Below are positions 14,228 to 64,000 of a stretch of DNA of 64,000 nucleotides, piece by piece. Origin of the DNA: Amycolatopsis solani (GTDB lineage: Bacteria > Actinomycetota > Actinomycetes > Mycobacteriales > Pseudonocardiaceae). Below the pieces are notes generated by a model. That model worked only from the letters and a program-made list of their open reading frames with translations, did not search any database and was not told the DNA's origin. Position numbers and translations under genes: made by a program. Location: contig NZ_JAWQJT010000003.1 of assembly GCF_033441515.1 (NCBI RefSeq), positions 62,001 to 126,000 on the forward strand, read 5' to 3'. Every line of letters begins with the position of its first letter. Position 1 is the first letter of the stretch.

Positions 14228-14649
14228 CGCGGTTCGAGGAAGACGAGCGGGATCTCGCGCTCGGTCTTCGTCTGGTACTGCGCGTAGTTCTTGAACTGCC
14301 CGGCGATCTTCGGCCACAGCTTGGCGCGCTCGTCGGCGTCGGCGACGCGGGCGTGCATCGGCCGCTTCGGCGCGCCCTTGACCGACACCTCGACCTCGGG
14401 ATGGTCGCGCAGGTTGAGGAACCACGCCGGGTGCGTGTCGTCCCCACCGCGCGACGCGACGACGACGAACGTGTCCCCGTCCTGGTGCGGCGAGGTCAGC
14501 AGCACCGACCGCGGCTGCCCGCTCTTGCGGCCGACGGTGGTCAGCTCCAGCACCGGCATGCCGGCCTGCCAGCCCACGCGGCCGCCGGTGATCTTGATCA
14601 GGCCGCGGTGCACGGCGTTCATCGTTTTCAGGACGCGGTCGCTCGGCAT
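14224..14649 (-). CDS. Deazaflavin (F420)-dependent nitroreductase family protein
   Basis: 141 residues, Ddn/FDOR family split-barrel. LELTTVGRKSGQPRSVLL and VVVASRGGDDTHPAWFLNLRDHPEVEV are the family's cofactor-binding motifs. Such enzymes use reduced F420 to reduce quinones or nitro compounds. Its stop overlaps the PBP stop by 4 bp on the opposite strand. Two LLM-class F420-type proteins also lie in the window, consistent with an F420-making actinobacterium. Confidence 0.9.
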   Translation of the reverse strand: MPSDRVLKTMNAVHRGLIKITGGRVGWQAGMPVLELTTVGRKSGQPRSVLLTSPHQDGDTFVVVASRGGDDTHPAWFLNLRDHPEVEVSVKGAPKRPMHARVADADERAKLWPKIAGQFKNYAQYQTKTEREIPLVFLEPR

Positions 14650-14802
14650 GAGCCCAATCTAGCCCCGCGCCCCCGCCGTCACCGTTCGGCCCCGATGTCC
14701 ACTTTGCCCGGTCCTGGTCCGGACCAGTTCCCGAAAACCGCCACGCCACGCGACACCGGTGTGCGAGGCTGCGGCGAACACGGAGTGAAAGAGAGAAGAC
14801 CG

Positions 14803-15273
14803 ATGCTGATCTGGGGCTGGCGAACACGGATCTACGTGCTGGCGATGACGACGTTCCTCTGCGGCCGCTGCGGCAACCCCGCCTCCCACGCGGTCCGCAA
14901 GGCGGTCACGAAGTTCACGCTGTTCTTCATCCCGCTCTTCCCGATCGGCGTCAAGTACACCGCGCAGTGCACCTTCTGCGGCATCGAGAACCGCATCCCG
15001 AAGGAGGACGCGGTCCGCCTTCAGGCGCAGGAGGAGCAGGGTCAGGCGCAGGCGCAGGCCGCGCCGGGCTACCCGCCGCACCCTTCCCAGCCGCAGCACC
15101 CCTCGCAGGGCTTCCCGGCGCCGGACGGCGGGCAGCAGGGCTTCCAGTCCCCGCACCCGTCCCAGCCCCAGGGTTTCCCGGCGCAGCAGGGCTTCCAGCC
15201 GCCGCACCCGTCCCAGCCGCAGGGCTTCCCGCAGCCGGGTCAGCCGGGCCAGTTCCCCCAGCAGGGCCAGTAA
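14803..15273 (+). CDS. Zinc-ribbon protein with Gln/Pro-rich repeat tail
   Basis: 156 residues. The first 75 residues hold a split zinc ribbon, CGRCGNPASH and CTFCGIENRIP, separated by a hydrophobic stretch (FTLFFIPLFPIGVKYTAQ). This matches the zinc_ribbon_15-type small proteins of actinobacteria. From about residue 80 the protein is low-complexity Gln/Pro/Phe, with HPSQPQGFP-type units repeated several times, likely disordered. The function is unknown. The ATG at 14803 follows a gagagaaga site. A hairpin terminator follows. Confidence 0.75.
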   Translation: MLIWGWRTRIYVLAMTTFLCGRCGNPASHAVRKAVTKFTLFFIPLFPIGVKYTAQCTFCGIENRIPKEDAVRLQAQEEQGQAQAQAAPGYPPHPSQPQHPSQGFPAPDGGQQGFQSPHPSQPQGFPAQQGFQPPHPSQPQGFPQPGQPGQFPQQGQ

Positions 15274-15282
15274 ACCCCGCGG

Positions 15283-15321
15283 GCGCTGACCCGAGCGCAC
15301 TTCCCGCACCCGGGTCAGCGC
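15283..15321. terminator. Bidirectional hairpin terminator
   Basis: Inverted repeat of 11 bp, gcgctgacccg (15283-15293) with cgggtcagcgc (15311-15321), and a 17-base loop. It lies between the ends of two convergent genes, so it can serve both strands. Confidence 0.65.
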
Positions 15322-15407
15322 ATCCGACTCGATCGGGCGAGCCGGCGCCCAGCTCCGCAGCCGTCTGATTCCCAACCGGGCCCACCAAGCCATCCCGGCG
15401 CCCACGC

Positions 15408-16019
15408 TTAAGCCCCAACCGGCGCAAACCCGGCAGCCCGCCGCGCAACCCGGGCCGCCATCGCCGCGAACCGCGCGTGAACCGCCCCGAGCAGCACCAC
15501 ATCCACCGCCGCCCGGCCCCCGTACGACCACTCCGGACCACCGGCCCACTCCCGCAACTCCCGCTCGCCCGCCGCAGCCGACGCGACGACGTCACCGAGC
15601 CCGCCACCATCCCCACCCCGGAGCGCCTCCCCCACCGCGCGAGCGGCCGCCACGGCCTGCGCCCCCAACCGGGCCACCGCGGGCCGGACCGGCGCCGGCA
15701 CGACTCCCCGCGCGTCCGCGACCTCCCGCGCAAGTCCACCCATCCGAGTGAGATCCCCGGCGACGCGGACGGCGGCGAGCACCGCCTTCACCTCCTCCTC
15801 CCGCGGCGCGTGCAGGGCCAGCAGCGCCCCCGCTTGGTCCTCGCACGCAGCCCCGAGCGCGGCCACCGCGGCGACCTCTTCGCGGGCACGTCCGCCCAGC
15901 GTGTGGTCACTTTCGAGCACCGAGCGCGTGGCCTCCTCGAGCGCGATCGCAACGAGCGCGCACAGGTCCGCCAGCCGGTGCGAGAGGGTGACCAGCTCCT
16001 TCTGAAACGCCGTCGGCAT
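15408..16019 (-). CDS. PhoU-like domain protein
   Basis: 203 residues, almost entirely helical. The N-terminus [38 protein letters not shown] and the following [26 protein letters not shown] resemble the two three-helix halves of PhoU, the negative regulator of phosphate uptake. The E-x-x-x-D metal-binding motifs are partly eroded in the second half (Ala/Gly/Arg-rich). It is not next to pst genes or a phoR-phoP pair, so a role in phosphate signalling is only inferred. It is divergent from the single-stranded DNA-binding protein gene. Confidence 0.75.
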
Positions 16020-45452: not shown

Positions 45453-46193
45453 TCAGGCGAACTTCGTCTTCGGGCGCTCCTGCCGCACCCCGTCGACGTA
45501 GACGTCCACCTTCTCGTCGAGGAACGCCACGAGGCCGGCGGTCCGGATGCTCTCCGGCAGCGGCGTCGGGTAGCTCCACGCGAGGTCGGCGTGCCCGGCG
45601 ACGTCGAAGTGGTCCGCCGCGCCCTTGTACGGGCAGTGCGTCACCGTGTCGATCTTCTCGAGCAGGTCCATCCGGACGTCGACGCGGGGCAGGTAGTAGC
45701 GGACCGGCAGCCCGGTCTCGAACAGCAGGTGCGGCCGGACGCTGTCGGCGACCGTGACGCCGTCCACCTCGATCCGGACGTGGCGCGAGCTCGGCAGGAC
45801 GTCGACGCGCACGCCGGGGTCGCGCGGGTGCGTGAAGATCTGCTCGTCCTCTTCGAACCAGTCGAAGGAGGCGAAGTCGAAGCGGACGTGGTCCCGGAGC
45901 TCCTCGATGGGCGAATCCGGGTGTTCCAGCGCGCCGTCCACCGCCTCGGCCCGGCCGACCTTTATCGTCGACAGAACACCATCTCCCCGGCTCGGCGAGT
46001 GCGTCGTCCGGCCGGAAGGGGTGAGAACGCCGCTCACGACGTCCGCGCGCGGGAAATAGTACGTGGGGTAGTACGGGACTTCCCACACCAGAAGGGGGTG
46101 CACGGTGTCCGCGACGAGTTCCCCGCCGAGGAACACCCGTACCCGCTTCGCGCCTTGTGCCACGCGGACCCGGCCGCGTACCGGAGTGCTCAT
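45453..46193 (-). CDS. DUF427 protein with two domains
   Basis: 246 residues with two tandem DUF427 (NTP_transf_9-type) units. The first is VRVFLGGELVADTVHPLLVWEVPYYPTYYFPRADV; the second VRIEVDGVTVADSVRPHLLFETGLPVRYYLPRVDV, with later CPYKGAADHFDV. The function of this small beta-rich family is unknown. It is convergent with the zf-HC2 gene (30 bp between them). Confidence 0.88.
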   Translation of the reverse strand: MSTPVRGRVRVAQGAKRVRVFLGGELVADTVHPLLVWEVPYYPTYYFPRADVVSGVLTPSGRTTHSPSRGDGVLSTIKVGRAEAVDGALEHPDSPIEELRDHVRFDFASFDWFEEDEQIFTHPRDPGVRVDVLPSSRHVRIEVDGVTVADSVRPHLLFETGLPVRYYLPRVDVRMDLLEKIDTVTHCPYKGAADHFDVAGHADLAWSYPTPLPESIRTAGLVAFLDEKVDVYVDGVRQERPKTKFA

Positions 46194-46290
46194 GCCCCGG
46201 TCAACGGGTCCCGGATCGGACGTATTCCGGAAAAACCGGGTTGCGGGCGGCTAGCGTGGCGGGGAATACGAAGACGAAAGGCGGGCACGG

Positions 46291-47487
46291 GTGACCGGCG
46301 TAGGAGCTCCAACGGTCGGGACCCCCGCCGGGATGCGCAAGATCAACCAGCGGGCGGTGCTCGACCTGCTGCGCCGCAGCGGGCCGGCGACCCGGCCGCA
46401 GGTCGCGAAGGACACCGGGCTGTCGAAGCCGACGGTCAGCCAGGCGCTGCTGGCGCTCGAGGCCGCGGGGCTGGCGCGCCCGACGGGGCAGACGTCGACC
46501 GGGACCGGCCGCTCGGCCGTGCTGTACGAGGCCGACCCCACGGCGGGGTACGTCCTGGGCGTCGACATCGGCCGCGAGCACCTCCGGGTCGCGGTGTCCG
46601 ACCTCGGGCGCGTGCTGGTGGCGCGCCGCGACGAGCGCAACACGGCACGGTCCGGGGCGGCGCTGGTGACCGCGGTCGGGAAGATCGCCGCCGACGCCGT
46701 CGCCGAGGCGGGCCTGACGGCGGCCGACATCGTTGTCCGCGTGGTCGGCTCCCCCGGTGTCGCCGATCCGGAAAAGCGCTGCTTCCGGCACGCGCCGAAC
46801 CTGCCGGGCTGGGGCCGGGCCGGGCTGATCGACGACCTCGAGGCCGTGCTGGGCCCGGACCTGATGGTCGAAAACGACGCGAACCTGACCGCGGTCGGCG
46901 AGTGGGAAAGCGGCGCCGCACGCGGCGCGTCGGTGTTCGGCTGCATCACGATCGGCACCGGCGTCGGCATGGGCATGATGGTCGACGGCCGCGTCTTCCG
47001 CGGCGCGACCGGCGCGGCGGGCGAGATCGGCTACCTCCCGTACGGCCGCACGCGCGCGGCGGAGGAGCCGACGAGCCCGCCCGCGCGTGGCCACCTCGAA
47101 GAGGCGACGGCGGCGCAGTCGGTGGTCCGCGGCGCCCGCGAACTCGGCCTCGGCACGGCGAAATCGGCCCGCGAGGTCTTCCGCCTGGCCCGCGAAGGCG
47201 ACGAACTCGCCCGCCGCGCGGTGGAAACGGAGGCCGACCGCCTGGCCTACACGGTCGCCTCGGTGGCCGCGGTGATCGACCCGGAACTGATCGTCCTGGG
47301 CGGCGGCATGGGCACGGCGGCGGACCTGCTGCTGGAACCGATCGACCGCGCCCTGCGCGCGTTCACGCCGCTGGTCCCGAAGGTGGTCCAGGGCGAACTG
47401 GGCGAGGACGCGGTCCTGACCGGCGCGATCAGCGTGGGCCTGCGGGCGGCGGAAGGCCTGGTCTTCGACCGCCGAGTGGGCGCCTGA
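46291..47487 (+). CDS. ROK family protein, probably a transcriptional regulator
   Basis: 398 residues. The N-terminal MarR-like helix-turn-helix (MRKINQRAVLDLLRRSGPATRPQVAKDTGLSKPTVSQAL) precedes the ROK sugar-kinase fold, with VLGVDIGREHLRVAV and FGCITIGTGVGMGMMVDG. The usual GEIGH followed by the C-x-C-G-x-x-G-C-x-E zinc motif is absent: it reads GEIGYLPYGRTR and goes straight on. So it is unlikely to bind zinc or phosphorylate sugars like classical members. It could sense a sugar or sugar phosphate. The GTG start at 46291 is used; an internal ATG (MRKINQ) is possible. Confidence 0.88.
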   Translation: MTGVGAPTVGTPAGMRKINQRAVLDLLRRSGPATRPQVAKDTGLSKPTVSQALLALEAAGLARPTGQTSTGTGRSAVLYEADPTAGYVLGVDIGREHLRVAVSDLGRVLVARRDERNTARSGAALVTAVGKIAADAVAEAGLTAADIVVRVVGSPGVADPEKRCFRHAPNLPGWGRAGLIDDLEAVLGPDLMVENDANLTAVGEWESGAARGASVFGCITIGTGVGMGMMVDGRVFRGATGAAGEIGYLPYGRTRAAEEPTSPPARGHLEEATAAQSVVRGARELGLGTAKSAREVFRLAREGDELARRAVETEADRLAYTVASVAAVIDPELIVLGGGMGTAADLLLEPIDRALRAFTPLVPKVVQGELGEDAVLTGAISVGLRAAEGLVFDRRVGA

Positions 47488-47541
47488 GTTTTACCCGCGA
47501 CGTAATCGACGGGCGCTCCGCCGGTGAGCAGGATCGGCGGC

Positions 47542-47859
47542 ATGACCCGAACGAACCGCGAGATCGTCGCCGACTGCTTCGAGAACCTGTTCCTGCGCAA
47601 GGACTTCGACGCCGCGAAGGCCGTGCTGCACCCCGGCTTCGTCACCCACAGCCCCGGGCTGCCCTCCGGCCGCGACGCCTTCGCGGACGCCGTGAAGAAC
47701 TCCCCGCTCGCGGACGCGGCCGCGGAGATCCGGCACGTGGTCGCCGAGGACGACCTCGTCGTCGTGCACCTGCACGTGGCGGGCACCGCCGTCGTCGACA
47801 TCCTGCGCGTCGAGGACGGCCTGCTCGTCGAGCACTGGGACGTGAAGCAGCCGCTCTAG
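47542..47859 (+). CDS. SnoaL/NTF2-like protein
   Basis: 105 residues, a cone-shaped alpha+beta fold. IVADCFENLFLRKDFDAAKAVLHPGFVTHSPGLPSGRDAFADAV and the ending DILRVEDGLLVEHWDVKQPL are typical of SnoaL-like polyketide-cyclase-like proteins. The substrate is unknown. The start is ATG 47542; an earlier in-frame codon at 47524 is less likely. It overlaps the thioesterase gene by 4 bp on the other strand. Confidence 0.85.
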   Translation: MTRTNREIVADCFENLFLRKDFDAAKAVLHPGFVTHSPGLPSGRDAFADAVKNSPLADAAAEIRHVVAEDDLVVVHLHVAGTAVVDILRVEDGLLVEHWDVKQPL

Positions 47860-48362
47860 CGGGTGATCACGCAGGTTCCCGACGCCGTCGCCAGCAGCTT
47901 GCCGGCGGCGTCGCGGATCTCCCCCTCGGCGAACGCGATCCGCGAGCCCTCCTTCACCACCCGGCCGGTCGCCCGGATCTCGCCGCGGCCCGCGTGGATC
48001 GCGCGCAGGTAGTTCACCTTCAGCTCCACCGACGCGTAGCCGACGCCCGCCGGCAACGTCGTGTGCACCGCGCAGCCGACCACCGAGTCGAGCATCGTGG
48101 CCGCCACGCCGCCGTGGACCATGCCGATCGGGTTGTACATCGACTCGTCCGGTTCGGCGACCGCTTCGACGTCGCCGTGCTCGATGCGCTCCCAGCGGAG
48201 CCCGAAGTGGGCGGCGATCGGCGGGCCCGGGATGCGGCCGTCCTTGATGGCCGTCAGGTACTCCAGGCCGGACATCGTGGCGCCGAGCCGGGCGGTCGGC
48301 AGCGGGTCCTGCCAGGTGATGGTCTTCGAGCGGGTCTCCGCTTCGGCGGCCACGTCGGTCAT
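47856..48362 (-). CDS. Hotdog-fold acyl-CoA thioesterase (PaaI-type)
   Basis: 168 residues. The hotdog motif NPIGMVHGGVAATMLDSVVGCAVHTTL with the conserved His, and a catalytic-side DSVVG, fit the PaaI/YbgC-like 4HBT family. It hydrolyses an acyl-CoA, perhaps aromatic. The 22-bp palindrome immediately upstream of the ATG (48375-48396) suggests tight control by a repressor. Confidence 0.88.
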   Translation of the reverse strand: MTDVAAEAETRSKTITWQDPLPTARLGATMSGLEYLTAIKDGRIPGPPIAAHFGLRWERIEHGDVEAVAEPDESMYNPIGMVHGGVAATMLDSVVGCAVHTTLPAGVGYASVELKVNYLRAIHAGRGEIRATGRVVKEGSRIAFAEGEIRDAAGKLLATASGTCVITR

Positions 48363-48374
48363 CTCGGGCTCCTC

Positions 48375-48396
48375 GATTATGACAAGTGTCTTAATC
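48375..48396. promoter_or_regulatory. 22-bp palindrome upstream of the thioesterase
   Basis: Arms gatta-gaca and tgtc-taatc (one mismatch) around 48375-48396 form a 22-bp dyad, 13 bp upstream of the thioesterase ATG and 91 bp upstream of the ArsR-like gene. A symmetric repressor site of TetR or ArsR type is likely. Confidence 0.55.
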
Positions 48397-48486
48397 GCAG
48401 CTTCGCCCGGCGCCGGGACGACGTCAAGCGCGGCGTGACCCAGGCCACCGGTGGTCCGCCCGGGGCGCGGGTGGAATCATCCGGGG

Positions 48487-48846
48487 GTGAGCACCGACCG
48501 CAAGCCGATCGACCCGGAACGCGTCTCCGCGGCGGTCGACGGGCTCGGCGACCGCGCCGTCATCGACGAATGGGCCCGGCGCTTCTCCGTGGTCGCCGAC
48601 CCGTCGCGGCTGGCGCTGCTGGTCTCCATCCACTACGCCCGCGAGATCAGCGTCACCGACCTCGCCGCCGCCACCGGCATGACCGACACGGCTGTGTCGC
48701 AGGCCCTGCGGCTGCTGCGGGCCCACGGCCTCGTCACGCCGCAGCGCACCGGGCGGGTCGTGCGCTACCGGCTCGCCGACGCGACCGTGCACGAACTCAT
48801 CCACCACGTGCGGCCACACCCCGCACCCGAGGGCGAGGACCGGTAG
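48487..48846 (+). CDS. ArsR-type winged-helix regulator
   Basis: 119 residues, DNA-binding fold ADPSRLALLVSIHYAREISVTDLAAATGMTDTAVSQALRLLRAHGLVTPQRTGRVVRYRLAD. No Cys metal sites (the typical ELCVCDL motif is absent), so it is a metal-independent member. It ends in a His-rich tail (HELIHHVRPHPAP). The GTG at 48487 is chosen. It may bind the adjacent palindrome. Confidence 0.87.
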   Translation: MSTDRKPIDPERVSAAVDGLGDRAVIDEWARRFSVVADPSRLALLVSIHYAREISVTDLAAATGMTDTAVSQALRLLRAHGLVTPQRTGRVVRYRLADATVHELIHHVRPHPAPEGEDR

Positions 48847-48855
48847 CGTGCGGGC

Positions 48856-49587
48856 ATGACGGGATTGCCGGAAGCCATCACCGCCTGCCTGTTCGACCTC
48901 GACGGAGTGCTGACCGGGACGGCGATTCTCCACCGCGAAGCGTGGAAGCGAACATTCGACGAATTCCTCCGCGCCCGCGACGGCGCCGGCTTCGCCGAGT
49001 TCACCGACCACGACTACGCGGCCTTTGTGGACGGCCGCCCGCGCGCCGACGGCGTGCGGGAGTTCCTGCGGTCGCGCCACATCGAGCTGCCCGAGGGCAC
49101 GCCGGACGACCCGCCGGACGCCCCCACCGTGAACGGCATCGGCAACCGCAAGAACGAGCTGGTCCTGAAGATCATCGAGGAGCGCGGCGTCAGCCCCTAC
49201 CCCGGCTCGGTGCGCTACCTCGAAGCGGTCAAGGCCGCCGGGCTGCGGATCGCCGTCGTGACGTCCTCGGCCAACGGCGCCAAGGTTCTCGACGCCGCCG
49301 GCCTGAGCAAGTACGTCGAGGCCCGCATCGACGGCATCGTCCTGCGCGAGCGGAACCTCAAGGGCAAGCCCGCGCCCGATTCGTTCCTGGCCGGCGCCGA
49401 GGCGCTCGGCGTCGAGCCCTCGCACGCGGCCGTCTTCGAGGACGCCCAATCCGGCGTCCAGGCCGGGAAAGCCGGCGGGTTCGGGTACGTGGTGGGCGTG
49501 AACCGGGCCGACCAGGCCGCCGAGCTGAAGGCCCACGGGGCCGACATCGTCGTCGACGACCTCGCCGAACTGCTGGAGGACCGATGA
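48856..49587 (+). CDS. Beta-phosphoglucomutase family HAD protein
   Basis: 243 residues. The nucleophile motif is FDLDGVLTGT, followed by VVTSSANGAKVLDAAGL and KPAPDSFLAGAEALGV, then FEDAQSGVQAG, typical HAD motifs I-IV. Beta-PGM converts beta-glucose 1-phosphate to glucose 6-phosphate, the step after phosphorolysis of trehalose or maltose by GH65. The next gene overlaps it (ATGA) and is exactly such a GH65. The pair resembles Rv3400-Rv3401 of M. tuberculosis; Rv2006 (OtsB1) carries the two halves fused. Confidence 0.93.
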   Translation: MTGLPEAITACLFDLDGVLTGTAILHREAWKRTFDEFLRARDGAGFAEFTDHDYAAFVDGRPRADGVREFLRSRHIELPEGTPDDPPDAPTVNGIGNRKNELVLKIIEERGVSPYPGSVRYLEAVKAAGLRIAVVTSSANGAKVLDAAGLSKYVEARIDGIVLRERNLKGKPAPDSFLAGAEALGVEPSHAAVFEDAQSGVQAGKAGGFGYVVGVNRADQAAELKAHGADIVVDDLAELLEDR

Positions 49588-51986
49588 CCGACGAACCCCG
49601 CGGCTACGAGTGCTCCCCGTGGGAGCTGCGCTGGCGCGGCATGGACGTGGACGCCCTGCAGCGCACCGAATCGGCGTTCGCGGTGTCGAACGGGCACATC
49701 GGGCTGCGCGGCACCCTCGAGGAGGCCGAGCCGCGCGGGCTGCCCGGCACCTACCTCAACGGGTTCTACGAGCAGCACGAACTCCCCTACGCCGAAGCGG
49801 GCTACGGCTACCCCGAAGAGGGCCAGACCGTCGTCAACGTGACCGACGGCAAGATCATCCGGCTGCTCGTCGAGGACGAGCCGCTGGACATGCGTTACGG
49901 CACCGCGACCGCGCACGACCGCGTGCTCGACTTCCGCAAGGGCACGCTGAGCCGGTCCACGGAGTGGTCGTCGCCGACCGGGCGGCGGGTCCGCGTGCGC
50001 ACCGAACGGCTGGTGTCGTTCACCCAGCGCGCGATCGCCGCGATCCGGTACGAGGTCGAGCCGCTCGACGAGGACCTGCAGCTGGTCGTGCAGTCGGACC
50101 TGCTGGCCAACGAGCCGATCGAGTCCGACACCAGCGACCCGCGGGTGGCCGCCGCGCTGAACTCGCCGCTGGTCGGCGAGTTCCACCGCGCGTCCGACTA
50201 CAACGCCGTGCTGGTGCACCAGACCCGCCGGTCGGGGCTGCGGATGGCCGCGGCGATGGACCACAAGATCGAGGTGGACGACGGGATCCGCGCCCGCATC
50301 CACTCCGAGGAGGACCTCGCGCGGCTGACCGTCGCGGTCGACGTGCCGAAGGGCGGGCGGCTGCGGATCACCAAGTTCCTCGCCTACGGCTGGTCCGCGC
50401 AGCGCTCGGTGCCCGCGCTGCGGTCCCAGGTCGAGGCGGCGCTGGCGGGCGCGCGCCAGACCGGCTGGAAGGGCCTGGTCACCGAGCAGCGCCAGTTCCT
50501 CGACGACTTCTGGGCCACCTCCGACATCGAGATCGACGGCGATCCCGAGCTGCAGCAAGCCGTCCGCTTCGCGCTGTTCCACCTCCTGCAGGCCGGGGCG
50601 CGCGGCGAAAGCCGCGCGATCGCGGGCAAGGGCCTGACCGGCCCCGGCTACGACGGGCACGCCTTCTGGGACACCGAATCGTTCGTCCTGCCGGTGCTCA
50701 CCTACACGATGCCGGACGCGGCGCGCGACGCGCTGCGGTGGCGGCATTCCACAATGGACAAAGCGCGGGAACGCGCGCACCAGCTGGGGTTGCGCGGCGC
50801 GGCGTTCCCGTGGCGCTCGATCAACGGCGCCGAATGCTCGGCGTACTGGCCGGCCGGCACGGCGGCGTTCCACGTCAGCGCGGACATCGCCGACGCGGTG
50901 CTGCGCTACCTCAACGCGACCGGCGACGAGGAGTTCGAGCGCGACTACGGCACCGAGCTGCTGCTGGAAACCGCGCGGCTGTGGGCGTCGCTGGGCCACC
51001 ACGACCGGCACGGGACGTTCCGCATCGACGGCGTCACCGGGCCGGACGAGTACTCGGCGGTGGCGGACAACAACGTCTACACGAACCTGATGGCGCGCCG
51101 GAACCTGCTGGCGGCGGCGGAATCCTGCGAGCGGCACCGGGACGTCGCCGCGCACTTCGGCGTCGACACCGTCGAACTGGACTCGTGGCGCGCGGCCGCG
51201 GCGGCGATGTACCTGCCCTACGACGCCGAACTCGGCGTGCACCCGCAGTCGGAGGGGTTCCTCGAGCACGACGAGTGGGACTACGAGAACACCGATCCGG
51301 CGCACTACCCGCTGCTGCTGCACTACCCGTACTTCGACCTGTACCGCAAGCAGGTCGTGAAGCAGGCGGACCTGGTGCTGGCGCTGCACCTGTGCGGTGA
51401 TTCGTTCAGCCTCGAGGAGAAGGCCCGCAACTTCGCCTACTACGAAGCGAGGACCGTGCGGGACTCCTCGCTGTCGGCGGGCACGCAGGCCGTCGTCGCG
51501 GCCGAGGTCGGGCACCTGCAGCTGGCCTACGACTACCTCGCCGAAGCCGCGCTGACCGACCTGCACGACGTGCACAACAACGTCCGCAACGGCCTGCACA
51601 TGGCGTCGCTCGCCGGGGCGTGGCAGGGCGCTGTGGCCGGGTTCGGCGGGCTGCGCGACCACGGCGGGACGCTGGCGTTCTCCCCGCGACTGCCGGAGCA
51701 GCTGGGCCGGCTCACCTTCCGCCTGATGTTCCGCGGCACGCGGTTCCAGGTCGAGATCGACCCCGACCAGGTCACCTACCACGTGCTCGACGGCGAGCCG
51801 CTGGAAGTGCTGCACCACGGCGAGCGCATCACGCTCACCCCGGAGCCGCAGCGGTTCGCGATCCCGAAGATCGACGCGGGCGACCCGCCGAAGCAGCCCC
51901 CGGGCCGCGCTCCGATGCGGCGTGACTCGGAAAAGGTGCGTCAGTACGCGGAACCCAGCAACCCCATTACTCCGGAAGGTCGCTGA
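49584..51986 (+). CDS. GH65 family disaccharide phosphorylase or hydrolase
   Basis: 800 residues, full length. The N-terminal beta-sandwich (YECSPWELRWRGMDVDALQRTESAFAVSNGHIGLRG) is followed by the (alpha/alpha)6 barrel, with the catalytic Glu in DGVTGPDEYSAVADNNVYTN (about 480-500), and the C-terminal beta domain. It acts on trehalose, maltose or kojibiose. A beta-PGM partner argues for phosphorolysis; some actinobacterial members act as hydrolases (trehalases). It overlaps the upstream gene by ATGA. The last 20 bp overlap the small acidic gene on the other strand. Confidence 0.93.
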   Translation: MTDEPRGYECSPWELRWRGMDVDALQRTESAFAVSNGHIGLRGTLEEAEPRGLPGTYLNGFYEQHELPYAEAGYGYPEEGQTVVNVTDGKIIRLLVEDEPLDMRYGTATAHDRVLDFRKGTLSRSTEWSSPTGRRVRVRTERLVSFTQRAIAAIRYEVEPLDEDLQLVVQSDLLANEPIESDTSDPRVAAALNSPLVGEFHRASDYNAVLVHQTRRSGLRMAAAMDHKIEVDDGIRARIHSEEDLARLTVAVDVPKGGRLRITKFLAYGWSAQRSVPALRSQVEAALAGARQTGWKGLVTEQRQFLDDFWATSDIEIDGDPELQQAVRFALFHLLQAGARGESRAIAGKGLTGPGYDGHAFWDTESFVLPVLTYTMPDAARDALRWRHSTMDKARERAHQLGLRGAAFPWRSINGAECSAYWPAGTAAFHVSADIADAVLRYLNATGDEEFERDYGTELLLETARLWASLGHHDRHGTFRIDGVTGPDEYSAVADNNVYTNLMARRNLLAAAESCERHRDVAAHFGVDTVELDSWRAAAAAMYLPYDAELGVHPQSEGFLEHDEWDYENTDPAHYPLLLHYPYFDLYRKQVVKQADLVLALHLCGDSFSLEEKARNFAYYEARTVRDSSLSAGTQAVVAAEVGHLQLAYDYLAEAALTDLHDVHNNVRNGLHMASLAGAWQGAVAGFGGLRDHGGTLAFSPRLPEQLGRLTFRLMFRGTRFQVEIDPDQVTYHVLDGEPLEVLHHGERITLTPEPQRFAIPKIDAGDPPKQPPGRAPMRRDSEKVRQYAEPSNPITPEGR

Positions 51987-57327: not shown

Positions 57328-57676
57328 GGTCGCTCCTCGATGCGGACAGTCCGCGCGGCCGGGCGGCCGGGCGTCGGGTGGTGGGAACGGGGTGCGGCAC
57401 CTGAGCGGGGTACGGCACCCGGGCGCGGTCCGGCACCTGAGCGGGGTACGGCACTCGGGCGGGGTTCGGCACTCGCGCAGGGCGCGGCACCCGGACGGGG
57501 TGCGGTGCCCGGGCGAGGAGGGGCGCCGGGGGCGCCCGGCACCGCTGTCACGCCCGGCGAGGAGGGCGCCCCGCCGCAAGTGGCGGGCCCCACCTGCGCA
57601 AGCGTGGCCCGCGCCGGTACGTGGGTGGCGGCGGCCGGCACCGCCGCCCGTCGGTTTGCGGGGTGCGGGGGTGTGC
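57328..57676. other. 349-bp gap with tandem repeat, between fahA and the DUF885 gene
   Basis: No gene is believable here. The first half holds an 18-bp tandem repeat (listed separately). The second half is GC-rich with several short inverted repeats (for example gggcgcc/ggcgccc near 57525-57535). The fahA promoter must be in it, on the minus strand. The long open minus-strand frame across it is caused by the repeat's periodicity. Confidence 0.6.
57391..57516. repeat. 18-bp tandem repeat, seven units
   Basis: Seven consecutive units of 18 bp with consensus ggtacggcacctgggcgg: units start at 57391, 57409, 57427, 57445, 57463, 57481 and 57499. Unit differences lie mostly at base 4 and in the second half. 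A degenerate eighth may precede at 57373. The period is a multiple of 3, so open frames stay open through it, but no protein is supported. Confidence 0.85.
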
Positions 57677-60600
57677 TCACTCGCCGCCTTCCGTGCCTCG
57701 CGTCGCCACCCAGTCGGCCACCACCGTTGCCAGGACCGGCAGGGGCAGGGTTCCGCTGCCCAGGACCGTGTCGTGGAACTCGCGGATGTCGAAGCGGTCG
57801 CCCAGTGCCTGCTCCGCTTCGGTGCGCAGGCGCTCGATCTCCAGGCGGCCCACCATGTAGCTGAGGGCCTGGCCCGGGTGACCGGCGTAGCGGTCGATCT
57901 CCGCTTCGATCTCGATCGGTGCCATCGGGGTGTTGTCCCGCAGGAAGTCCACCGCGCGCTGACGGCTCCAGCCCAGTGCGTGCAGGCCCGTGTCCACCAC
58001 CAGGCGGGCCGCGCGCATCGAATCCTGGGTCAGGAGGCCGAAGCGCGAGACGTCGTCGGAGTACAGGCCCATCTCGTCGGCCAGGCGCTCGGCGTACAGG
58101 CCCCAGCCTTCGACGTAGGCGTTGAAGATGCAGATCCGCCGCAGCAGCGGCACCCCGGTCAGCTGCTGTGCGAGCGTCAGCTGGAAGTGGTGCCCCGGCA
58201 CGGCTTCGTGGAACGCGACCGACTCGCTCAGCGTCCGCTGCCGCTGGTCCGCCTCGTTCGTGTTGGCGTAGTAGGTGCCCGGGCGCGAGCCGTCCAGTGA
58301 CGGGTCGATGTAGTACGCGATCGAGCCGCTTTCGGCCTCGGCCGGGGGTACCGGCGCGACCTCGCAGCGCTGCTCCGGGACGCGCAGGAACCATTGCGGC
58401 GCCACGGCTTCCGCACGGGCGATCGTCTGCCGGGCCGACTCCAGCAGCTCCTCCCCGTCGCGCCAGCGCAACGCCGGGTCGGTGCGGATCCGCTCGAAGA
58501 TCTCGGCGAGTTCGGTGGTGCCGAACACCTTCTCGCCCAGCTCGCGGTACTCCCCCGCCAGCCGGTCGATGATCGCCAGCCCGGTTTCGTGCAGCTCCTG
58601 CGCCGTGCGCTCGGTCGTCGTCTCCGCGCGGATCAGGGCGGCGTACCGCTCCGGGCCGCCCGGGAGGTCGCCGAGGCCCGGGGACGTCTCCGGCCGCGCG
58701 ACCGGGACGACCTCGCCGGTCAGAAAGTCGCGGTACCGCGTGTACGCGGGACGCACCACTTCGGCGAGCAAGCGGTCACGCTCGGCCTCGAGCCCGTGGA
58801 CCGGGACCTTCAGCGGGTCGTCGTCCGGGGCGCCGAGGTAGCGCTCGACGTACCCGATGCCGATGCGCGCCAGGAACTCCGGCGGCGTCAGGCCCTCGGC
58901 GAGCGCCGCCCGCTGCCGCTCGATCAGCTGGTCCAGGTACGTGCCGATGGCCTCGAGCCGGCTCAGGTAGCCGCGGGCCTTGGGCTCGTCGTCGAGCACC
59001 GTCTGCGGCAGCTCCACCAGCAGCATCAGCGCCGGGGCGGCCAGGCCGTCGCTCACCGCGATGTCCGCCCGGCCGGAGGCGAGCAGATCGAGTTCGGTGC
59101 GTGCCTGCCAGATCACCACGTCGCGGGTGACGCGGTCGGCCGGGGCCAGCGCCGCCGCGTCGAGCGCTTCGGCCCGCGCGACGATCCCGGCGAGCCCGGC
59201 GCGGTACCGCTCGGCCGCCTCGGCGGTCTGGTCGGCGAGCTTGTCGTGCGCGCCCGGCAGGCCGTAGAGCGACGGGATCAGCGGCTGCGCCTCGAACATC
59301 AGCGCCACGCACTCGTCGGCGAGCCGGTCGGGCGTGTCCGCGTACCCGGCCACCCAGTCCGCGACGACGCCGGCCAGCACCGGCAGCGGGAGCGTGCCGC
59401 TGCCGAGCACGACGTCGTGGAACTCGCGGATGTCGAACCGCTCCCCCAGCGCCTGCTCGGCTTCGGCCCGCAGCCGCTGGATCTCCAGGCGCCCCACCAT
59501 GTACCCGAGGGCCTGGGCCGGGTTGGCGGCGTACCGGTCGATCTCCGCTTCGATCTCCAGCCGCGCCATCGGCGTGTGCTCGACGAGGTAGTCGACCGCC
59601 TGCTGCCGGCTCCACCCGAGCGCGTGCAGCCCGGTGTCGACCACCAGCCGGCCGGCCCGCATCGAGTCCTGCGTCAGCATGCCCAGCCGCGAGACGTCGT
59701 CGGAGTACAGGCCCATCTCGTCGGCCAGCCGCTCGGCGTAGAGCCCCCAGCCCTCGGCGTACGCGTTCACGTGCGCGATCCGGCGCAGCAGCGGCACGCC
59801 GGTGAGGCCCTGCGCGAGGCACTGCTGGAAGTGGTGCCCCGGCACGGCTTCGTGGAACGCGACCGCCTCGCTGGTGAACCGCGGCCGCTTCTCGGCCTCG
59901 TGGGTGTTCGCGTAGTAGACACCCGGGCGCGTCCCGTCGAGCGACGGCTGGAGGTAATACGCGATCGTGCCGCTGGTCGCCTCCGCTTCGGGCACCGGCG
60001 CGACCTCGCACTCCTGCTCGGGAATCCGCGAGAACCATTGCGGCGCAACGGCTTCCGCCCGCGTGATGGCGGCCCGGGCGCCGGCCAGCAGCTCCTCGCC
60101 GTCACGCCAGCGCAGCGCCGGATCGGTGCGGATCCGGTCGAAGATCTCGCTGAGCTCGGTGGTGCCGAAGATCTTCGCGCCCAGCTCGCGGTACTCCCCC
60201 GCGAGCTTTTCGATCAGCACCAGGCCGGTCTCGTGCAGCTCTTGCGCGGTGCGCTCGGTGGTCGTTTCGACGCGGATCAGCGCCGCGTACCGCTCCGGGC
60301 CGCCCGGCAGGTCGCCGATGCCCGGGGACGTCTCCGGCCGCGCGACCGGCGCGACCTCGCCGGCCAGGAACGCGCGGTAGCGCTGGTACGCCGGGTGCAC
60401 GACGTCGGCGAGCAGCCGGTCGCGCTCGGCCTCGAAGCCTTCGAGCGCGTACGGCGGTGTGACCCGCAGCGGGTCGCTCTCCGGCGCGGCGAGGTAGCGG
60501 TCCACGTAGCCGATGCCGATGCGCACCAGGAACTCCGCCGGCACCAGCCCTTCGGCCACGGCGGCGCGCTGCCGGGTGATCAGGGCGTCGAGGTAGTCGC

Positions 60601-63600
60601 CGACGCCGGCGAGCCGGCTCAGGTAGCCGCGGACCTTCGGTTCGTCGTCCAGCACCGTCTGCGGCAGGTAGAGCAGCAGCTGCAGCGCGGGCGCGCCGAG
60701 GCCGTCGCTGACCGCGATGTCGCCGCGGCGCGAGTCGATCTCGTCGATTTCGGTGCGGGCCTGGGAAAGCACGACCTCGCGGGTGACCCGCTCGGCGGCC
60801 GGCAGCCCCGCCGGGTCGAGCGCCTCGGCCCGGGCGGCGATCGCCGCGTACCCGGCCCGGAAGCGGTCTTCGGCGGCCGGGTCCGGCAGCTTGCCGTGGT
60901 CGCCGGGCAGCCCGAACACCGACGGGTAGAGCGGCTGCCGCTCGAAGTTGAGCGCCACCAGCTCGTCGGCCAGCCGATCGGGCGTGTTGCCCTGCCCGGC
61001 CACCCAGTCGGTGACCACCTTGGCCAGCGCGGACAGCGGCAGCATGCCGTGGCCCAGCACGACGTCGTGGAAGCCGCAGATGTCGAACCGCTCCCCCAGC
61101 GCCTCCTCGGCTTCCGCCCGCAGGCGCTGGATCTCCAGGCGCCCCACCATGTACCCGAGCGCCTGCGCCGGCCAGGCGACGTACCGGTCGATCTCCGCCT
61201 CGATTTCCAGCTGCGCCATCGGCGTGTGCTCGACCAGGAAGTCAATCGCCTGCTGCCGGCTCCAGCCCAGCGCGTGCAGGCCGGTGTCGACGACCAGCCG
61301 GCCGGCCCGCATCGAGTCCTGCGTCAGCATTCCGAAGCGCGAGACGTCGTCGGAGTACAGGCCCATCTCGTCGGCCAGCCGCTCGGCGTAGAGCCCCCAG
61401 CCCTCGGCGTAGGCGTTGAACATGCCGACCCGCCGCAGCAGCGGCAGGTCACGCAGTTCCTGGGCCAGGCTGAGCTGGAAGTGGTGGCCCGGCACAGCTT
61501 CGTGGAACGCGATGGCCTCGCTGGTGAACCGCGGCCGCTTGTCCGCTTCGTGGGTGTTCGCGTAGTAGGTGCCCGGCCGCGTGCCGTCGAGCGACGGCGG
61601 GAGGTAGTACGCGATCGTGCCGCTCGCCGCGTCGGCCTCGGGGACCGGCGCGACCTCGCACTTTTCCGACGGCAGGTGCGAGAACCACCGCGGGGCGACG
61701 GCTTCCGCACGGGCGATCGCGTCCCGCGCCGCGGCCAGCAGCTCGTCGCCGTCGCGCCAGCGCAGGGCGGGATCGGTGCGCAGCCGTTCGAAGATCTCGG
61801 CGAGGTCGGTGGTGCCGAACACCTTCTCGCCGAGTTCGCGGTACTCGGCCCCGAGCTTTTCGATCAGCGCCAGCCCGGTCTCGTGCAGTTCCTGCGCGGT
61901 GCGCTCGGTGGTCGTCTCCGCGCGGATCAGCGCGGCGTACCGCTCCGGCCCGCCCGGGACGTGCCCGATCCCGGGCGCGGTGTCGGGCCGCCCGGCGGGC
62001 TCGACCTCCGCGCGCAGGAAGTCGCGGTAGCGCGCGTACGCCGGGTGGACGACCTCCGCGAGCAACCGGTCGCGCTCGGCTTCGAAGCCTTCGACGGCCG
62101 CGGTCGTGCCCACCTTGAGCGGATCCCGCTCCGGCGCGGCGAGGTAGCGGTCCAGGTACTCGGCGCCGACGCGCGCGAGGTACGCGGGCGGCACGAGCCC
62201 GTCGGCGAGGCTCTCGCGCTGCCGCTCGGCCAGCGTCTCCAGGAACGACTCGATCCCGGCGAGCCGGGCCAGGTAGCCGCGTGCCTTCTTCTCGTCGTCC
62301 AGCTTGTAGTACGGCAGGTACATCAGCAGTTCGAGCGCGGGCGCGGTGAGCCCGTCGCTGACCGCGATGTCGGTCGTGCGCGCGCCCAGCCTGTCGGCCT
62401 CGACCTCGGCGGCGGCGATGACGACCTCGCGCGTGACGGCTTCTTCCGCGGACAGGCCGTCGGACGGCAGCGCCCGCGCGCGGGCCGCGAGCCCGGTGTA
62501 GGAGGCCCGGAAGCGGTCCTTCGCGGCGCGGCTCTGGTCGGCGAGGCGGTCGTGGCCGCCGGGCAGCCCGAGTACCGACGGGCTCAGTGGCTCCTGCTCG
62601 AACTGCAGCTCGACGAGCTCGCCCGCCAGTCCGCCGACGGTGTCGCCGTGCCCGGCCACCCACTCGTCGACGACCGAGGCGAGCACCGACAGCGGCAGCG
62701 GGCCGCCGGCCAGGACGAGGTCGTGGAACGCCCGGACGTCGAACCGCGAGCCGAGCCGTTCGGTGGCGCGAGTGCGGTTCCGCTGGATCTCCAGCCGCCC
62801 CACCATGTACGACAGCGCCTGGCCCGGCCAAGCGATGTAGCGGTCGACCTCGGACTCGATCTCGGGGCGCGCCTCCGGCGTGTGCGCCAGCAGGTAGTCG
62901 ACGGCCTGCTGCCGGCTCCAGCCCAGCGCGTGCAGCCCGGTGTCGACGACCAGCCGTCCCGCCCGCAGCGAGTCGCCGGCCAGCATGCCGAGCCGGGCGA
63001 TGTCGTCGGAGTAGAGCCCCATCTCCTCCGCGAGGCGCTCGCTGTAGAGCCCCCAGCCCTCGATGTAGGCGGTGAAGCCGCCGATGCGGCGCAGCAGCGG
63101 CAGCTCGGTGAGCCCTTGGGCGATGCTGAGCTGGAAGTGGTGCCCCGGCACGGCTTCGTGGAACGCGGTCGTCTCGGCCATGTGCCGGAGCCGCTCGGTG
63201 GCCTCGTGGGTGTTCGCGAAGTAGATGCCGGGCCGGGAGCCGTCGGTGGCCGGGCGCAGGTAGTACGCCGCGGGCGCGCCGGGCGCGACCTCCGCCGGGA
63301 CCGCTTCGACCGTGCACTGCTGTTCGGGGATGCGGCCGAACCACTTCGGCGCTTCGGCGGCCGCCCGCGCGACGGCCGTGCGGGCGGTGTCCAGCAGGTC
63401 GTCGGCGCTGCCCCAGCGCAGCGCCGGGTCGGTGCGCAGGCGCTCGAAGATCTCGCCGAGGTCGTCGGTGCCGAACACCCGCTGCCCCAGCTCGCGGTAC
63501 TCGGCGGCGAGCGAGTCGATGACGTCGAGCCCGATCCGGTGCAGTTCCTCGGGCGTGTGCTGCGTGGTCGTGTGCATCCGCGCCAGGCGCCCGTACGTCT

Positions 63601-64000
63601 CGTCGCCACCCGGCAGCCACGACAGGCCGGGCCGGTCTTCGGGCCGCCCGTGCGGCTTCACCTCGTCGGCCAGGAACGCGCGGTACTCCGCGAAGGCCGG
63701 GCGCACGACGTCGGCGAGCAGCTCGTCCCGCCGTCGCTCGAAGTCCTCGTCCGGCGCCGGCTGGCGGCGCAGCGGGTCGGTCGCCGGGTCGGCGAGGTAG
63801 CGGTCGAGGTGGGCGACCGCGGCGTCGACCAGGTGGGCCACCGGGACCAGGCCGTCGGCGATGCCCTCGGCGTGCCGCCGGGCGGACTGGCGGAGGAACT
63901 CCGGGATGGCGGCGAGCCGCCCGAGCTGCGCCTCCGCGGCCTCGCCCGCGGTCACGGTCGTCATCGGCAGCACCATCAGCAGCCCGGCCGCGGGCCCGAT
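57677..64000 (-). CDS. Giant tetra-domain DUF885 protein, 5' end outside the window
   Basis: At least 2107 residues in one continuous frame that stays open to the window edge. The upstream sequence aligns with the start of the other units, so the true start is outside. Four DUF885 units of about 548-552 residues follow in tandem. Each carries FHEAVPGHHFQ (metallopeptidase-like HExxPGHH, near visible residues 281, 833, 1383 and 1931) and a later EGW motif (NAYAEGWGLYAERLADEMG-type). Other shared blocks are DIAVSDGL...APAL, TERTAQELHETGL and MVGRLEIQR. DUF885 is normally a single-unit protein of about 550-600 residues, related to zinc metallopeptidases; the substrate is unknown. No signal peptide can be judged, as the N-terminus is missing. 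Confidence 0.92.
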   Translation of the reverse strand: MGPAAGLLMVLPMTTVTAGEAAEAQLGRLAAIPEFLRQSARRHAEGIADGLVPVAHLVDAAVAHLDRYLADPATDPLRRQPAPDEDFERRRDELLADVVRPAFAEYRAFLADEVKPHGRPEDRPGLSWLPGGDETYGRLARMHTTTQHTPEELHRIGLDVIDSLAAEYRELGQRVFGTDDLGEIFERLRTDPALRWGSADDLLDTARTAVARAAAEAPKWFGRIPEQQCTVEAVPAEVAPGAPAAYYLRPATDGSRPGIYFANTHEATERLRHMAETTAFHEAVPGHHFQLSIAQGLTELPLLRRIGGFTAYIEGWGLYSERLAEEMGLYSDDIARLGMLAGDSLRAGRLVVDTGLHALGWSRQQAVDYLLAHTPEARPEIESEVDRYIAWPGQALSYMVGRLEIQRNRTRATERLGSRFDVRAFHDLVLAGGPLPLSVLASVVDEWVAGHGDTVGGLAGELVELQFEQEPLSPSVLGLPGGHDRLADQSRAAKDRFRASYTGLAARARALPSDGLSAEEAVTREVVIAAAEVEADRLGARTTDIAVSDGLTAPALELLMYLPYYKLDDEKKARGYLARLAGIESFLETLAERQRESLADGLVPPAYLARVGAEYLDRYLAAPERDPLKVGTTAAVEGFEAERDRLLAEVVHPAYARYRDFLRAEVEPAGRPDTAPGIGHVPGGPERYAALIRAETTTERTAQELHETGLALIEKLGAEYRELGEKVFGTTDLAEIFERLRTDPALRWRDGDELLAAARDAIARAEAVAPRWFSHLPSEKCEVAPVPEADAASGTIAYYLPPSLDGTRPGTYYANTHEADKRPRFTSEAIAFHEAVPGHHFQLSLAQELRDLPLLRRVGMFNAYAEGWGLYAERLADEMGLYSDDVSRFGMLTQDSMRAGRLVVDTGLHALGWSRQQAIDFLVEHTPMAQLEIEAEIDRYVAWPAQALGYMVGRLEIQRLRAEAEEALGERFDICGFHDVVLGHGMLPLSALAKVVTDWVAGQGNTPDRLADELVALNFERQPLYPSVFGLPGDHGKLPDPAAEDRFRAGYAAIAARAEALDPAGLPAAERVTREVVLSQARTEIDEIDSRRGDIAVSDGLGAPALQLLLYLPQTVLDDEPKVRGYLSRLAGVGDYLDALITRQRAAVAEGLVPAEFLVRIGIGYVDRYLAAPESDPLRVTPPYALEGFEAERDRLLADVVHPAYQRYRAFLAGEVAPVARPETSPGIGDLPGGPERYAALIRVETTTERTAQELHETGLVLIEKLAGEYRELGAKIFGTTELSEIFDRIRTDPALRWRDGEELLAGARAAITRAEAVAPQWFSRIPEQECEVAPVPEAEATSGTIAYYLQPSLDGTRPGVYYANTHEAEKRPRFTSEAVAFHEAVPGHHFQQCLAQGLTGVPLLRRIAHVNAYAEGWGLYAERLADEMGLYSDDVSRLGMLTQDSMRAGRLVVDTGLHALGWSRQQAVDYLVEHTPMARLEIEAEIDRYAANPAQALGYMVGRLEIQRLRAEAEQALGERFDIREFHDVVLGSGTLPLPVLAGVVADWVAGYADTPDRLADECVALMFEAQPLIPSLYGLPGAHDKLADQTAEAAERYRAGLAGIVARAEALDAAALAPADRVTRDVVIWQARTELDLLASGRADIAVSDGLAAPALMLLVELPQTVLDDEPKARGYLSRLEAIGTYLDQLIERQRAALAEGLTPPEFLARIGIGYVERYLGAPDDDPLKVPVHGLEAERDRLLAEVVRPAYTRYRDFLTGEVVPVARPETSPGLGDLPGGPERYAALIRAETTTERTAQELHETGLAIIDRLAGEYRELGEKVFGTTELAEIFERIRTDPALRWRDGEELLESARQTIARAEAVAPQWFLRVPEQRCEVAPVPPAEAESGSIAYYIDPSLDGSRPGTYYANTNEADQRQRTLSESVAFHEAVPGHHFQLTLAQQLTGVPLLRRICIFNAYVEGWGLYAERLADEMGLYSDDVSRFGLLTQDSMRAARLVVDTGLHALGWSRQRAVDFLRDNTPMAPIEIEAEIDRYAGHPGQALSYMVGRLEIERLRTEAEQALGDRFDIREFHDTVLGSGTLPLPVLATVVADWVATRGTEGGE
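57677..64000 (-). repeat. Four in-frame 1.65-kb tandem repeats (DUF885 units)
   Basis: Anchor ctggaagtgg (in HHFQ) is found at 58181, 59825, 61475 and 63131. Spacings are 1644, 1650 and 1656 bp, all multiples of three. Unit borders (after a DWVAG motif) lie near 59352, 61003 and 62659. Units 2, 3 and 4 look more alike to each other than to unit 1, suggesting stepwise duplication or local gene conversion. The units have diverged enough to be real and not an assembly artefact. Confidence 0.85.

Follow-up and report, generated by a model that had tools for sequence, protein, structure and literature searches.

Why would a bacterium link four copies of one predicted enzyme domain into a single protein, and how could such a chain have come about? 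The question is raised by a gene at the end of the 64,000-nucleotide stretch of Amycolatopsis solani DNA analysed here (the window). On the minus strand the frame at positions 57677-64000 is stop-free throughout, and its start ATG is found on contig C3 at the equivalent of window position 64300, 300 bp past the window end. Once these 300 bases are added, the giant protein (P0001) is a single unbroken frame of 2207 aa, of which the window holds residues 101-2207 and the stop. The original prediction of one frame of more than 2100 codons is thus borne out, with this extension as a correction. Judged by P0001, the closest relatives are Amycolatopsis sp. SID8362 and A. eburnea (94%). The host genome carries two further DUF885 genes, both single-unit.

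A Pfam search of the full protein, upstream bases included, gives four full matches to PF05960 (DUF885; 2046 bits in total against a cut-off of 32.4) and no other family above cut-off. A chance match is excluded since each unit alone scores 507-525 bits (E-values of 2.5e-151 to 6.2e-157). According to domain bounds and unit trees, unit 1 is of type A (62657-64000; residues 1-548, the first 100 lying outside the window) and is followed on the same minus strand by three units of type B: unit 2 or B2 (61001-62650; residues 551-1100), unit 3 or B3 (59351-60991; residues 1104-1650) and unit 4 or B4 (57707-59344; residues 1653-2198). Linkers of only 2-3 residues separate them. Each unit carries HEAVPGHH, at residues 381-388 (63137-63160), 933-940 (61481-61504), 1483-1490 (59831-59854) and 2031-2038 (58187-58210), and EGW, which begins 33 residues past the start of HEAVPGHH (residues 414-416, 966-968, 1516-1518 and 2064-2066). 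The motif spacing of 552, 550 and 548 aa matches the predicted periods of 1656, 1650 and 1644 bp, and the predicted HExxPGHH and EGW pair is present in 4/4 units. The metal motif has the spacing HEx4HH in all four, which differs from the HExxH of the MA(E) gluzincins.

The architecture recurs in the genus. A unit-4 match at E <= 1e-158 was found in all of the 80 Amycolatopsis genomes surveyed, neighbouring genes being checked in part of them: four matches in 19 genomes, three in 11, two in 46 and one in 4. The 19 four-match genomes have unbroken four-unit frames of 2220-2404 codons, and five of the four-unit genomes are single-contig (G264, G036, G039, G273, G024). A frameshift or collapsed assembly was rejected as unlikely, as the frame is continuous, with no frameshift splitting the gene, and so many genomes of the genus (19/80) encode the unbroken protein. 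Eight of the three-match genomes have fused genes by frame length (1662-2036); in another (G276) a four-unit gene has a frame broken in its assembly, and G281 and G032 each carry three separate adjacent genes. The two-match genomes comprise 10 separate pairs and 36 cases counted as fused, of which 27 were opened (including G052, a two-unit gene with a broken frame in the assembly) and 9 judged from frame length alone. As for the one-match genomes, G265 has a further frame-broken unit, the unit of G010 lies at a contig end, and G055 and G043 have one unit. The predicted variation in unit number therefore holds between species, with separate genes in some and fusions of 2, 3 or 4 units in others.

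Among 7988 candidates scored in a protein collection, 48 passed E <= 1e-30 within the chosen length range. They include 17 four-unit matches (P0002-P0018), 14 named Amycolatopsis and 3 with a JGI family name only, so that all organism-named four-unit matches belong to this genus. One of them, P0015 (2135 aa), has an N-terminus that begins inside unit 1. None of the 48 has more than four units; the longest is 2215 aa, and the filter allowed about 3860 aa. No fusion was found in the long frames opened from elsewhere in the family or order (L167, L177, L206, L207, L208, L216), with one DUF885 unit each. Single-unit proteins do broadly predominate, as predicted, although DUF885 fusions of two units also occur outside Amycolatopsis. 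The 32 examples of our sample (P0069-P0101 except P0098) keep both motifs in each unit, have two units rather than four, share 32-41% identity with the Amycolatopsis two-unit protein, and most of their N-termini resemble export signals on reading. Their origin is apparently separate from that of the Amycolatopsis fusion.

How the chain arose was followed with two unit trees, one of 132 rows and one of 100 rows with a mixture model and more genomes; both are quick searches with SH-aLRT support only and some long branches flagged. The trees set unit 1 (type A) apart from every later unit of fused proteins (type B), and this split is already present in genera with A and B side by side as separate genes, such as Thermocrispum. 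In the separate-gene loci the second start codon overlaps the first stop by 4 bp in 23/27 junctions (24 loci), and in 20 of the 21 junctions assigned to the A/B locus. This count leaves out L168, L169, L171 and L197; the same 4-bp start/stop overlap is seen in L035 and L038, which are additional to the 27. All 27 fused A units form one group in the 132-row tree (support 99). In the 100-row tree, however, the separate-gene lineages G278 and G281/G032 are placed within the fused group or next to it, G281/G032 next to one fused lineage (support 89); fusion may accordingly have happened once, with later splits, or more than once. The B2, B3 and B4 units of four-unit proteins each form a cross-species clade (support 100, 99 and 100, 132-row tree). 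Three-unit proteins have the form A-B2-B4, for example in A. pretoriensis, or A-B2-B3, in P0033 (132-row tree) and in G029 and G280 (100-row tree). B was duplicated on its own in G281/G032 (support 99, 100-row tree). The same probably applies to P0037 and P0038, because both of their later units sit on the B2 side, without resolution, in both trees. As far as sequence comparison goes, these data show an old duplication giving adjacent genes A and B, a fusion to A-B and an amplification of B to A-B2-B3-B4, the three-unit forms having one B unit missing.

All four units of the chain appear to be maintained. Values of dN/dS range from 0.127 to 0.332 over 28 comparisons (7 species pairs and 4 units; Nei-Gojobori), which shows, as judged from codon changes, that purifying selection acts on each of the four units. 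HE..PGHH and EGW are present in 200/200 full-length units extracted from the loci, a set in which some genomes are represented more than once and other loci contribute outgroup units. Pieces of less than 500 residues in one locus batch were dropped from it, and with them the broken G276, G052 and G265 units. In 53 proteins (P0001-P0035, P0037, P0038, P0050-P0065) both motifs occur in 160 of 161 expected units, the lone exception being unit 1 of P0057 (HEAVPGHP). Outside Amycolatopsis, the second unit of P0040 lacks EGW. Pseudo-units can be ruled out for the units seen, given that none of the 200 lacks a motif and that dN/dS is low for each unit. The prediction of four intact metallopeptidase-like sites per chain is supported.

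The strongest alternative to the reading favoured below is gene dosage: the units would be functionally alike, amplification would simply raise the amount of one enzyme, and fusion would be a neutral side effect of duplicating a gene whose stop and start codons overlap. The catalytic residues tabulated are identical in A and B, and the two types show just 9 fixed differences; the core segments, which account for 21% of the model, contain 2 of these. This is no enrichment, and an attempt to derive specificity from these positions was dropped. Fixed differences among B2, B3 and B4 number 26, with 4 in the core. Unit number also rises and falls among relatives, as dosage would allow. However, identity between A and B is just 49-60% in compared pairs, the two have formed separate clades since the gene-pair stage, and purifying selection continues to act on every unit. 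The unit-to-unit identities point the same way. Within P0001 unit 1 shares 57, 57 and 55% identity with units 2, 3 and 4, and the later units share 75% (2-3), 70% (2-4) and 78% (3-4), a range of 55-78%; orthologous units of compared four-unit species are closer (83-96%), so the units have not been strongly homogenised. We regard dosage as a doubtful explanation.

What each unit might do was approached through its fold. An AlphaFold2 model of unit 4 (window 57701-59326; mean pLDDT 95.3, pTM 0.93) matches the three solved DUF885 structures (PDB 3o0y, 3iuk, 3u24). After these, its fold neighbours are M32 carboxypeptidases, MATCAP, M3 oligopeptidases and ACE (M2). Enzymes of the M2, M3 and M32 families act on short peptides. 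The host genome has one M3 match and no M32 match. The excerpts consulted state that SCOP places M2, M3 and M32 in one family, the M2 and M32 representatives being exopeptidases (PMC4580569), and that MATCAP trims chain ends (PMC10499314). The original prediction had proposed long or repeated substrates; this finds no support in a unit fold resembling M32, M3 and M2 peptidases and MATCAP, and the modelled fold argues against long folded substrates.

Because the HE helix of the model stops at residue 374 and the next helix starts at 379, leaving a break at 375-378, the HEx4HH motif resembles a zincin helix with an interruption at AVPG and can be seen as a lengthened HExxxH. The latter motif is reported for MATCAP and DPP III in the part of PMC10499314 consulted. 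Across 55 DUF885 units drawn from several phyla, H373, E374, P377, G378, H379 and E406-W408 (unit-4 model numbering) are invariant and H380 is nearly so, suggesting that the first histidine of the HH pair, H379, is a metal ligand. The invariant E406 of EGW lies on a helix spanning 402-418 and is a putative third ligand. H379, with H373, and E406 would then hold the metal and E374 would act as the general base. An excerpt of the ZincSight report (PMC12572635) gives a predicted zinc site of two His and one Glu in a DUF885-labelled protein, with the motif written as HExxH.

DUF885 is mentioned without a function in the parts of PMC8478523 and PMC11479980 consulted. Pfam still describes the family as of unknown function, which leaves room for a hydrolase acting on another amide or ester substrate, and fusions of DUF885 to an amidase (P0137, PF01425) and to an alpha/beta hydrolase (P0041) are in line with it. 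Nevertheless, 6 of the 10 fusions noticed carry S9 peptidase domains (P0043-P0046, P0048, P0049), in keeping with a function in degrading peptides, and the proteins of similar fold are peptidases, making a non-peptidase activity improbable.

The reading we favour, with a probability of roughly 0.6, is that of an oligo- or carboxypeptidase of the cytoplasm that depends on a metal, probably zinc, and has four complete and independently folded clamshell DUF885 units per chain. A cytoplasmic location is suggested by the N-terminus, where no signal peptide is evident on reading. Like enzymes of the M32, M2/M3 and MATCAP types, each unit would act by trimming short peptides or the free ends of chains. 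Types A and B may differ in substrate preference like the two domains of somatic ACE, and fusion would set the ratio of partners that were already co-translated, at 1:1 for A:B and later at 1:3. Such an enzyme would probably serve in turning over peptides and supplying amino acids. A model of the two-unit A. jejuensis protein (mean pLDDT 86.8, pTM 0.70) does not fix the placing of the units relative to each other, and nearly all of the 50 matches listed for it span one unit. A more elaborate version, which we advance only tentatively and consider rather unlikely, is a four-site metallopeptidase chain, derived from a translationally coupled A+B pair by fusion and multiplication of B, with A:B fixed at 1:3, in which every site works, the units have different peptide preferences and peptides are handed from site to site, the genus preserving the 1+1, 2, 3 and 4 stages.

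A repeated chain that builds a rod, ring or shell around its active sites in the manner of a self-compartmentalising protease, the shell-like particle of the original prediction, is very improbable, and nothing found supports a shell. The short linkers would give a stiff string of domains and the pTM of the two-unit model would allow some fixed packing between units, but no assembly signal came to light, unit number varies from 1 to 4 among close relatives, and a shell would probably be redundant because units resembling M2, M3 and M32 enzymes would already exclude large substrates.

One known parallel to a four-unit peptidase is somatic ACE, an exported M2 enzyme with two units and HExxH motifs. 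It has two units (7q3y, 9clx) against four here, and the likeness comes without an established sequence relationship. It would lie in the tandem arrangement of same-family domains, here four, with residues intact and under purifying selection and with activity predicted. By this analogy the predicted enzyme is best read as working like a four-headed somatic ACE. Carboxypeptidase D, with three M14 domains of a different fold, is likewise a multi-domain exopeptidase chain. Its third domain is inactive in the fly homologue according to the part of PMC4980332 consulted, whereas all four units of the Amycolatopsis protein look intact. The tubulin carboxypeptidases MATCAP/TMCP are single-unit, with HExxxH and tubulin substrates, in contrast to HEx4HH and four units here. 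The solved DUF885 proteins also have one unit per chain, and two of them (3o0y, 3u24) are titled putative lipoproteins, whereas the Amycolatopsis protein has no evident export signal. DUF885, two-unit forms elsewhere and tandem peptidases are thus known already, and this is no new kind of system. Four-unit proteins themselves are common in one Amycolatopsis clade, the 19/80 genomes above, but no tandem DUF885 protein appeared in titles or abstract openings listed for the DUF885/PF05960 literature, and the literature on tandem metallopeptidases yielded nothing useful.

The genomic surroundings were also compared. Upstream lies a divergent gene with an AsnC-type HTH domain (PF13404), found beside the locus in 69/80 loci and divergent in 69/69; of the 11 others, 2 were judged contig ends and 9 other loci. 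An RluA-type pseudouridine synthase and a class-V aminotransferase are also found upstream, and downstream are a fumarylacetoacetase (TIGR01266), a BrkB-family gene, a luciferase-like monooxygenase and a Ppx/GppA-type gene, whose presence near the DUF885 gene varies among relatives. The fumarylacetoacetase is not adjacent to the DUF885 gene in many of the two-unit loci tested and in any of the separate-gene ones; a functional operon with it was dropped, and it was not used to assign function, because it is not a constant partner. The AsnC-type neighbour is constant but too weakly characterised to serve as proof of amino-acid control. From this comparison of neighbours across relatives, the locus seems to be a fixed place in the chromosome, not a mobile element or natural-product cluster.

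The interest of the family lies in the series of steps with active sites kept. Somatic ACE and carboxypeptidase D are examples of peptidases with several sites per chain, which in our view are usually met as finished products only. Here one genus holds coupled separate genes as well as two-, three- and four-unit fusions, with the motifs kept in nearly all units seen. The Amycolatopsis series is a ready set for testing the value of extra active sites per chain, and a good case for giving DUF885 a biochemical role.

The DUF885 gene (minus strand; 57677-64000 is its part inside the window) is bordered upstream by a divergent gene with an AsnC-type HTH (14337-15416 of locus L007, from the equivalent of window position 64336 on, outside the window). 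Its product carries the HTH at the N-terminus, followed by a Pro-rich stretch; Pfam gave no match for the C-terminal part of the protein. This gene adjoins the DUF885 locus in 69 of the 80 loci. On the other side, the longest fumarylacetoacetase frame contains in its N-terminal portion an 18/36-bp tandem repeat (57388-57515; about seven 18-bp copies with 77% match), situated between the DUF885 gene and the segment that encodes the fumarylacetoacetase domain itself. Very long open frames are commonplace in high-GC DNA. Two occur on the plus strand of the window, one of 1869 aa antisense to the DUF885 gene (58394-64000) and one of 2131 aa at 45591-51986.

Two records are named Amycolatopsis kentuckyensis (locus L022 and protein P0029), with four units in one and three in the other. 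The three-unit record clusters with A. pretoriensis. The discrepancy in unit number may reflect mislabelling or a genuine difference between strains. A MAG labelled Klebsiella pneumoniae (L040) carries a one-unit DUF885 gene with 42% identity to this family and is possibly a mislabelled bin.

Among the proteins found by searching, 32 with two DUF885 units form a group (P0069-P0101 except P0098); they are 1157-1215 aa long, apart from one partial member of 927 aa (P0084, named Steroidobacteraceae). The HExxPGHH and EGW motifs are present in both units of all 32, and most N-termini are export-like. Other proteins combine DUF885 with an alpha/beta hydrolase (P0041), an S9 peptidase domain (P0043-P0046, P0048 and P0049), a part annotated as WD40-type (P0047) or an amidase (P0137). 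Rows of three separate neighbouring DUF885 genes are found at loci L174 (genome G066), L190 (G281) and L191 (G032). Stop and start codons overlap by 4 bp in L190 and L191; in L174 the A of the ATG is also the final base of the stop codon.
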